Origin: Microbotryomycetes sp. JL201
Taxonomy: Eukaryota; Basidiomycota; Microbotryomycetes
NCBI GenBank assembly: GCA_033819885.1
Contig: JAQYUZ010000037.1
Coordinates: 106,707 to 170,706, forward strand
Direction of reading: 5' to 3'
DNA: 64,000 bases
This document shows positions 61,880-64,000 of this stretch, in pieces (position 1 is the first letter of the stretch; each line of letters begins with the position of its first letter). Below the pieces are notes generated by a model. The model had not been told where the DNA came from, ran no database searches, and saw only the letters and a program-made list of their open reading frames with translations. The translations under genes and the position numbers were made by a program.

Positions 61880-63955
61880 ATGGCGACGCGTGCGTACTAT
61901 CGCCCTCCGAACCGGGCAAACTGGATAGTTTCCAGCCGTACTGGCCCGCGGCCTGCCATGCGCATGTCTCTGCTATTGTGCACGAGCCCGCGCCCGCTCG
62001 CGCCGACACCGACGCCGTGTCGCTCGTTCACCTCGACTCGCACCGCCACGTTTGAGCTCTCCTTCAGTCCTCAAGCTCTGCTCTGGCCTTGCGACTTGTC
62101 CGTGTGGCCGACCATGCTCGGCCAACTGTCAGTGACGTCGTTGCTCCCAAATTGGCCAGTTGGCGCGTCCATCACTGTAGACTCTGCACGAGGCACGGGT
62201 CAATACACTTGTACAAGAACGGACGAAACAAGCTACAAGTGCACTTGCGGCAGTTGGAAGTTTCAGACGAGAACAAAGTCAGGCAAAGGCAAGAGTTGCA
62301 AGCATCTGAGAAAGCTGTTGGGACACGAGTGCGTATTCTTTTTCCGTGTTTCAAGTCGCGATCAAGCTGCCGGGAACGGCACTGACCTAGACGAAGCACA
62401 GGCACGAAATGGAAAGAACAGGGATTGATTCGACCGTCAAGACGCTCAAATCGCATCGACCTTCAGCATACTCGATCATGGCCGCAAAAATCGATGCAGC
62501 TCTACTCGATGATGGTTTGTCGGGGGCAGTCGAAAACCACGAGGGCACAGTTAAGCCAGCAGCCGTAGACAGCAGCGACGGCACACCGCCTCCCAAAAAG
62601 CAGTCAAAGAAATTGACGACAAGCCCGGATACCAAGCGTCCCGTCATTTTAGACAAAAATCTCTCGATCAAGCAATCAACTCTCCAACCCGGCCCAGTGC
62701 AGCTCCTCATGGCATACAAATACGACGCCTCTCGATTGAATCCCACGGGTTACTGGGTCAGCGAAAAGCGTGAGATCCAAAACTTATTTTCGCCAAGGGG
62801 TGGGCTCACGTGGGATGTGGTCAACAGTGGATGGCGTTCGCGCTTATTGGGACGGCCATGGCACGCTCTGGACTCGTATCGGCCGGCCGTTTGCAGCTCC
62901 CAAAGCGTTTCTCGAGCGTGAGCTTCTTTTGGGCTACCCTTATCGAGAACTGTGGCTGAACTATTGATGCTGATGCAGAATTACCACGCGGTCACGCTTT
63001 GGACGGAGAATTGTTTATTGATCGAGGTCGGTTCGATGAAACATCGGGTATTGTTCGAACGACGGTCCCCGGAGCAGTCAACGATGCTCGATGGGAGCAA
63101 ATTCATTACATGGTGAGTTTAATCCTGTTTATTGCTACCGGCTCTGGCTTGTGCGTTGACGCACGCCTTATTTCAGGTGTTTGACGTTCCGTCACTGGGT
63201 CATCTGCCTTTTGAGCAAAGACAATACGAGCTGCAGCAAATCGTCACGGGGATCAAGTCTGGCACGTTGAAGGTGGTCGATCAAATTCAATGCAAAGATG
63301 TCGAGCATTTGACCGAACTCGTTGCTCGAGTTGCCGAACAAGGAGGTGAAGGGTCAGCCGTCTGTTTCGTTCTGGAGAACCCGAAAGTCTTGACTGACGT
63401 AGGTTGTCCTCTATTTGCAGGGTCATGCTTAGACAGCCGGGCTCGCTCTATGCCAATAAACGAGACAGGTCGCTTCTCAAAGTCAAATCGTTCTATGATG
63501 CCGAGGCCAGAGTTGTCGGGTACGAACCTGGCAAGGTGAGATCTCTTTTCTACGTTTTCTGTGCTGGGTATTTGCTTGCGGTACGGCAAAAGCTGAAAAA
63601 AGGGCCTATCTTTCGTAATTTCTTGTTTGCACCGCAGGGCAAGTACAAGGGCATGGTCGGTTCATTAATCTGTCAGATGGAATCTGGTCAATCGTTTAGC
63701 GTAGGAAGTGGTCTGAGTGACCAACGTCGATCAGATCCACCAAAGGTGCGTGTCAAAGCCGAGACGCTCTGTTCGCTCGCCTCAACCGCCAAGTAATTTC
63801 GCCCTCGCTGATCGACGCATGCTCGATTCCAACAACAGGTTGGCTCGATTGTCACGTACAGGTTTCAAGAGTTGACAAAATCTGGAGTACCAAGGTTTCC
63901 GGTGTTTGTCGGTGAGAGAATAGACGCGGAAACACCCAAGGATGCGATCGTTTGA
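61880..63955 (+). CDS. ATP-dependent DNA ligase with N-terminal SWIM zinc finger
   Basis: 518 aa if started at 61880, 440 aa from the ATG at 62114. Exons: 61880-62328, 62402-62769, 62828-62917, 62979-63112, 63177-63352, 63421-63535, 63638-63745, 63839-63955. The SWIM motif CxC...CxH is seen in YKCTCGSWKFQTRTKSGKG followed by SCKHLRKLLGHE. The ligase nucleotidyltransferase core has NPTGYWVSEKLDGVRAYWDG, where the catalytic Lys is joined to LDGVR exactly across an intron, LDGELFIDRGRFDETSGIVR, HYMVFDVPSLGHLPFEQRQY, EGVMLRQPGSLYANKRDRSL (motif IV) and LLKVKSF (motif V). An OB fold follows: GMVGSLICQMESG, GSIVTYRFQELTKSGVPRFP. The 78 residues before 62114 are basic and could target mitochondria. 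This layout resembles bacterial SWIM-ligases more than eukaryotic ligases I, III or IV. Confidence 0.85.
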
Positions 63956-64000
63956 TAGAGTGACAAGAAGCAGTGATGTTGTTGTTGATTTGGGGGGGGG

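Follow-up and report, generated by a model that had tools for sequence, protein, structure and literature searches.

A 64,000-nucleotide stretch of the genome of Microbotryomycetes sp. JL201 (contig JAQYUZ010000037.1, positions 106,707 to 170,706 of the forward strand; hereafter the window) carries close to its end a gene that raises two questions, namely whether a SWIM-type zinc finger and a compact DNA ligase are really parts of one protein, and what such a ligase might do in a fungus. In the spliced model, the gene (61880-63955, forward strand) has 523 codons plus a stop codon, and its product has, in this order, a finger of the form CxC...CxH, a linker of basic character, and the core and OB domain of an ATP-dependent ligase of the Lig E ("Lig K") type. 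The host genome was taken as fungal on account of intron structure and gene content (e.g., PHM7_cyt/RSN1_TM). A preliminary description of this DNA had proposed a SWIM finger fused to a bacterial-type ligase, possibly an old lateral transfer serving organelle repair. We found a real gene, which is a variant of a known ligase family; the preliminary description was right on structure and kinship and over-read the function. In our opinion, the gene probably encodes an accessory Lig E ligase with an N-terminal SWIM finger, which would act in stress-related break repair beside Lig1 and Lig4 and whose fused ancestor would have come from a prokaryote or a phage.

The ligase core belongs to Lig E

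The adenylation domain (PF01068, 54.2 bits, cut-off 26.2) and the OB domain (PF14743, 105.5 bits, cut-off 28) were both recognized in the window protein, and the NCBIfam profile of Lig E, PRK09125, scored 316.6 bits (cut-off 200), whereas the Lig1-type model dnl1 stayed well under its cut-off (45.9 against 217.8 bits). The spliced protein contains the core motifs KLDGVR, LDGEL, EGVM and LLKVK, and its best three relatives of solved structure, 4d05 (E 2.9e-64), 8u6x and 6gdr, are entitled Lig E or minimal-type ligases. No match to the DNA-binding domain PF04675 or to BRCT was found in the window protein by Pfam search; therefore, it lacks PF04675, which characterizes ligases I, III and IV, as well as the BRCT of III and IV, and the compact ligase proposed at first is supported.

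The tree agrees with the profiles. In a rooted tree (tree 4 below), the fungal core falls within a Lig E group of 55 rows (support 100/97), and the genome's own Lig1 and Lig4 stand apart (98/89, with long branches present), rather than enclosing it, which was the placement that would have spoken against the preliminary description. By these measures, the core is a Lig E core, distinct from the Lig1 and Lig4 of its own genome. Descent from a Lig1, Lig3 or Lig4 relative was rejected on profile scores, solved relatives and tree position.

Searches of the 17.15-Mb genome with OB_2 and with the protein found this as the single Lig E gene, with a further piece on contig C37 remaining under the cut-off (17.4 bits). 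Three ligases bearing PF04675, named by reading their open reading frames (ORFs), are also present: two are Lig1-like (C26:157500-162000 and C4:38500-42500) and one is Lig4-like with a BRCT-like stretch (C12). Nucleotidyltransferase chemistry is common to them and the window protein, but they possess their own PF04675 domain and lie on a separate branch.

The SWIM finger is part of the ligase gene

The sequence has the order C-x-C-xn-C-x-H, and a predicted model of residues 79-151 with modest confidence (mean predicted local distance difference test, pLDDT, 72) shows the fold order of SWIM fingers, i.e., strands (30-35 and 41-43 of the model) and then a helix (46-51), so that the region is classed as a SWIM finger with predicted zinc binding. 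A profile was built without the window protein from 74 of 80 finger regions of other Lig E loci, bacterial and phage-like (six were left out). Among the 1,895 ORFs of the window, exon 1 was its sole significant match (27.5 bits, E 1.9e-7), while the next ORF reached 7.3 bits and the top of 20 shuffles 12.9 bits. A chance motif is ruled out by this result, because exon 1 is singled out by a profile to which the window protein did not contribute. Of 113 related loci, 81 have the SWIM motif, and 80 have it ahead of a ligase core within a single ORF; here, 113 is the number of loci with a match among L009-L122 (114 loci; L017 has none, and L099 and L100 give identical values). Since the Lig E finger profile matches exon 1 alone and 80 of the 113 loci have the motif ahead of the core, the finger belongs, as judged from these comparisons, to the ligase gene, and the fusion claimed in the preliminary description is borne out by the profile and by relatives with the same order. 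Two further searches gave little: the finger profile, compared by sequence with solved structures, had Zinc finger protein 568 as its top match (E 0.011), which is uninformative, and a plasmid search with the finger region alone returned no match at E 1.

It could be argued that two genes are present, with exon 1 encoding a separate SWIM protein and the ligase starting at an internal ATG (residue 157 or 180), as the linker between finger and core is long and unconserved and the unspliced frame of exon 1 continues for 31 codons to a stop. However, 80 relatives have finger and core in one ORF, the finger of exon 1 matches a profile made of Lig E fingers, and a (G/N)-x6-R spacing 3' of the finger, kept in 70 of 81 SWIM ORFs, crosses the join of exons 1 and 2 in the fungal gene and thereby supports that splice. 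We regard two genes as highly improbable.

SWIM-Lig E proteins in bacteria and phage-like contigs

Bacterial genomes were scanned with patterns from the ligase core only (KGKYKGM and EKLDGVRA), and the best 80 of 514 confirmed stretches were kept; these were ranked by similarity to the whole window protein, so a slight pull to SWIM is possible, although most rows were matched in the core only. The finger is present in 60 of these best 80 stretches, which come from Planctomycetota, Myxococcota, Verrucomicrobiota, Acidobacteriota, Bacteroidota, Melainabacteria and others. The 20 stretches without it are 18 of Pseudomonadota (17 by taxon table, and L051, with a broken ORF, by title) together with L036 and L062, the latter cut by the contig start. 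At E 1e-30, matches were obtained in 26 of 117 Myxococcota and in 4 of 119 Planctomycetota among the genomes sampled; each of the two counts takes in a centre genome (G001, G002) that was chosen for having the gene. All 30 matches start at profile positions 4-11, ahead of the finger.

The viral scans are biased, since two of the three used a SWIM pattern; the contigs reach 485 kb. A phage collection contained one record at E 1e-20, LR745208 (485 kb), which matches 98% of a SWIM-Lig E, and when the whole fungal protein was used, the plasmid and phage rows that matched best cover mainly its ligase part. The predicted model of a phage-like SWIM-Lig E (L101; mean pLDDT 90) has 4d05, 8u6x and 6gdr as best fold matches, with a template modelling (TM) score of 0.84 normalised to 6gdr. 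Two other phage-like contigs were inspected by eye. L099 (1428-4710) has a complete SWIM-Lig E beside pieces of a second copy, namely a SWIM stretch upstream and an OB piece downstream, behind an HNH-type-looking stretch, which suggests a second SWIM-Lig E copy broken by a mobile gene. L122 (3001-3309) has a SWIM ORF of 102 aa with WKFQ as in the fungal finger (CSCPAWKFQ against CTCGSWKFQ), and no ligase was seen in the surrounding 6.2 kb.

Additional domains are frequent in the relatives, with WGR in 41 of 80 ORFs and BRCT in 1 of 80. In an Acidobacteriota metagenome-assembled genome, a single ORF (L040:2674-5598) combines SWIM and Lig E with WGR and with the regulatory and catalytic domains of PARP; this ligase-PARP fusion could be an assembly error. 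An ORF of 1,223 aa in Obscuribacterales (L065:2737-6405) has SWIM-Lig E followed by five WGR stretches. On this evidence, the SWIM-Lig E fusion is a widespread architecture, often with WGR and once with PARP, and the fungal gene shares the layout, with a homologous finger ahead of the core in one protein. The kinship to bacterial SWIM-ligases and to the Lig K/Lig E class, as first proposed, is supported by the relatives, the finger profile and the ligase profile.

Gene structure

The gene has eight exons (Table 1), and the preliminary description counted its seven introns correctly and gave its ATG (61880) and the end of its stop codon (63955) exactly. All introns are GT-AG, of 58-102 bases, and no gap falls at the joins of the core exons in alignments to two solved Lig E proteins. 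The window ends where the contig (C31, 170,706 bases) ends, leaving only 45 bases (63956-64000) beyond the gene with a terminal run of nine G's, so that the downstream context is missing.

Table 1. Features of the SWIM-Lig E gene and its product (positions in the window).
Feature	Position	Strand	Basis
Exon 1 (N-terminal extension and SWIM finger, residues 1-151)	61880..62332	+	spliced model, finger profile match
N-terminal extension, residues 1-78 (9 K+R, 2 D+E); start uncertain (ATG 61880, 61958, 61964 or 62114)	61880..62113	+	codon usage, sequence
SWIM-type zinc finger, about residues 95-151; expected zinc ligands C121, C123 (62240-62248), C140, H142 (62297-62305)	62162..62332	+	sequence, finger profile, predicted fold
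Intron 1 (phase 0), separating SWIM finger from ligase linker	62333..62390	+	spliced model
Exon 2 (low-complexity linker and start of adenylation domain, to catalytic lysine K277 at 62766-62768)	62391..62769	+	spliced model, domain search
NLS-like (nuclear localization signal-like) basic patch KKQSKKLTTSPDTKR, residues 220-234 (pattern only)	62595..62639	+	sequence pattern
Adenylation (nucleotidyltransferase) domain PF01068, residues 265-433, exons 2-6	62730..63487	+	Pfam search
Exon 3	62828..62917	+	spliced model
Exon 4	62979..63112	+	spliced model
Exon 5	63177..63352	+	spliced model
Exon 6	63421..63535	+	spliced model
OB domain PF14743 (DNA_ligase_OB_2), residues 447-512, exons 6-8	63527..63919	+	Pfam search
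Exon 7	63638..63745	+	spliced model
Exon 8, including stop codon	63839..63955	+	spliced model

Descent of the fused form

Four trees were made. Tree 1 had 60 rows of SWIM bacteria, 19 of SWIM-less bacteria and 19 phage-like rows, and tree 2 had 25, 10 and 19; tree 3 had 17 SWIM and 8 SWIM-less bacteria with 20 SWIM and 15 SWIM-less phage-like rows, and tree 4 was rooted, with five distant ligases put back as outgroup. Left out of the trees were L011-L016 and L116-L121 (distant ligases), L100, L051 for its broken ORF and L122, which has no ligase. In trees 1 and 2, the fungal protein is beside the phage-like L102 (support 91 and 87/90, respectively). Core profiles of four groups, which also leave out L036 and L062, gave the highest scores for the fungal protein with SWIM phage-like sequences (325-332 bits; the other three gave 289-314), and its 12 best BLAST relatives are all SWIM-bearing. 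As the fungal finger is homologous to those of bacteria and phage-like contigs, the fused form may have been inherited by the fungus; the window protein was the one eukaryotic Lig E in this comparison.

Several results weigh against the reading of the gene as an inherited SWIM-Lig E fusion tied to break sensing. The Pfam SWIM model PF04434 stays under its gathering cut-off of 19.6 bits, with 11.1 bits for the whole protein and 14.7 bits for residues 79-151 alone. At E 0.01, this model matches just one of the 80 relatives (of which L036 lacks a finger in its ORF), and is hence a poor judge of this SWIM subtype, while Pfam alone is no proof of the finger. In the alignment of 75 finger regions, the fungal finger is only 15-33% identical to the other 74. 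Eight columns are invariant, but C, C, W, C and H were demanded by the pattern with which the relatives (and not the window protein) were picked and are therefore invariant by selection; G95, Y109 and K141 lie outside that pattern. When SWIM-less phage-like rows were added (trees 3 and 4), the fungal protein moved beside SWIM-less proteobacterial Lig E (99/92; 92/98). The approximately unbiased (AU) test, whose groups were defined once the first tree was known, rejected union with the bacterial SWIM group (p 0.037), whereas union with SWIM-less bacteria (p 0.198) or with phage-like rows (p 0.432) was not rejected. As well, the core profile of bacterial SWIM-Lig E scored lowest of the four (289-303 bits, with SWIM-less profiles at 302-314). 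Finally, WGR, BRCT and PBZ are not among the four families that a Pfam search of the window protein gave at E 1, so that any link to PARP signalling is by association only.

These results bear on the alternative of a SWIM-less Lig E ancestor with independent gain of the finger, which would agree with the neighbors of the fungal protein in two of the four trees, with the AU test and with a bacterial SWIM profile no higher than the SWIM-less ones. Independent gain would leave unaccounted for a finger that matches that of SWIM-Lig E proteins at the same position, the SWIM-bearing best BLAST relatives and the top score of the SWIM phage-like profile, and we consider it quite unlikely. Inheritance of the fused form is kept here as the preferred reading. 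The end branch of the fungal protein is long, and its place inside Lig E shifts with the rows used; because of this instability, no donor or direction of transfer is assigned. An old lateral origin, as the preliminary description had supposed, would fit the published account of eukaryotic Lig E (PMC10665377, PMC8455567).

It might further be speculated that the SWIM-fused form is ancestral, a break-recruited ligase common to Myxococcota, Planctomycetota, large phages and fungi and tied to WGR/PARP-type sensing in several lineages, with the "minimal" leader-bearing proteobacterial Lig E as a stripped derivative. In the rooted tree 4, the earliest branch consists of SWIM-less phage-like rows, weakly supported (80/70); this is mild evidence against SWIM as ancestral for Lig E, and we hold the proposal to be rather unlikely.

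The N-terminus and the site of action

The basic N-terminal extension, from which targeting to mitochondria had been suggested, is present as letters, but its first part fared badly in a codon-usage test, which is weak on such short stretches. Codons 1-26 (-0.20 bits/codon) and 27-78 (0.01) were each outscored by two other frames, and codons 79-151 (0.11) were in the best frame. The first 26 codons look non-coding and the first ATG is doubtful. ATG79 (62114) has A at -3, and a start there would drop the whole extension.

A mitochondrial repair ligase would use an upstream ATG to gain an import signal and act on organelle DNA, and alternative starts could give both forms. With translation from the first ATG, positions 1-58 are free of acidic residues, the first 40 residues have 7 R+K, the best hydrophobic moment over 18 residues is 0.47, and CRSFTS resembles an R-3 type cleavage site. 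The codon-usage result, the A(-3) context of ATG79 and the NLS-like patch at residue 220 speak against it. With a doubtful first start codon and the NLS-like patch, the organelle role suggested in the preliminary description is unsupported, and a mitochondrial function appears somewhat unlikely. Nuclear repair would be at least as likely, and an organelle form is still compatible with the data.

Comparison with published Lig E

According to previous studies, X-rays induce Lig E in the rotifer A. vaga and in Mortierella, human cell lines become more radio-tolerant with A. vaga Lig E, and bdelloids, plausibly along with other eukaryotes, obtained Lig E by horizontal transfer (PMC10665377). Lig K was reported in "many fungi", though not in Schizosaccharomycetes (PMC6264785), and thus a fungal Lig E as such is not unusual. 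A literature search for fission yeast Adl1 as a possible member of the class gave no relevant paper. Leaderless Myxococcales Lig E was reported to group with a few, mainly fungal sequences (PMC8455567), and Lig E seals nicks, cohesive ends and mismatches, with nick sealing achieved without encircling the DNA (PMC6144786).

Compared with minimal bacterial Lig E (4d05, 6gdr and 8u6x), the fungal protein has the same adenylation and OB_2 core, the same core motifs and no helical DNA-binding domain. However, minimal Lig E often has a periplasmic leader and no appended domain (PMC8455567, PMC6144786), whereas the fungal protein has an N-terminal SWIM finger and a basic linker, which sets it apart from canonical proteobacterial Lig E; a periplasmic leader would not be expected in a protein of a fungus. 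Eukaryotic Lig E/Lig K of bdelloid rotifers, Mortierella and other fungi has the same core class, in hosts also with other ligases, but the extra domain discussed there is PBZ, which was not matched in the window protein. As to leaderless Myxococcales Lig E, the 26 matches in Myxococcota genomes all align from before the finger; these proteins differ in being bacterial, and the published network is of ligases of 250-370 aa (PMC8455567).

The word "SWIM" is absent from the main text of PMC10665377 and PMC6264785 and from PMC8455567, and a literature search for SWIM with DNA ligase did not find a SWIM fusion to Lig E described in the papers covered. The architecture may well be listed in databases. 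What has already been published is the occurrence of Lig E in fungi and its grouping with the leaderless Lig E of Myxococcales; the SWIM-fused branch is the part not found described in those papers.

Proposed role

In the proposed mechanism, the core would act as solved Lig E enzymes do: it would adenylate itself on K277, pass the adenosine monophosphate on to the 5' phosphate of a nick or a cohesive end, and then seal the break. The SWIM finger may add a DNA- or partner-binding function absent from the minimal core and so bring the enzyme to breaks. The extra domains of the relatives, i.e., WGR, BRCT, WGR with PARP (L040) and five WGR (L065), point to break repair, and the fungal enzyme would take part in stress-related DNA break repair alongside Lig1 and Lig4, with the nucleus as the most likely site. 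A tie to poly(ADP-ribose) signalling may perhaps exist; contig C24 of the same genome has a PARP match and a WGR match separated by 0.7 kb. The ancestor of the gene would probably have come from a prokaryote or phage with the fused form, and the introns would have been gained later.

Lig E serves as the standard example of a ligase that can do without added domains, and its function in the cell is still debated. That a finger has been kept in one position across bacteria, phage-like contigs and a fungus, together with WGR, BRCT and PARP in relatives, suggests a branch of the family built to find breaks. The SWIM fusion gives a testable role for fungal Lig E, an enzyme tied elsewhere to radiation tolerance.
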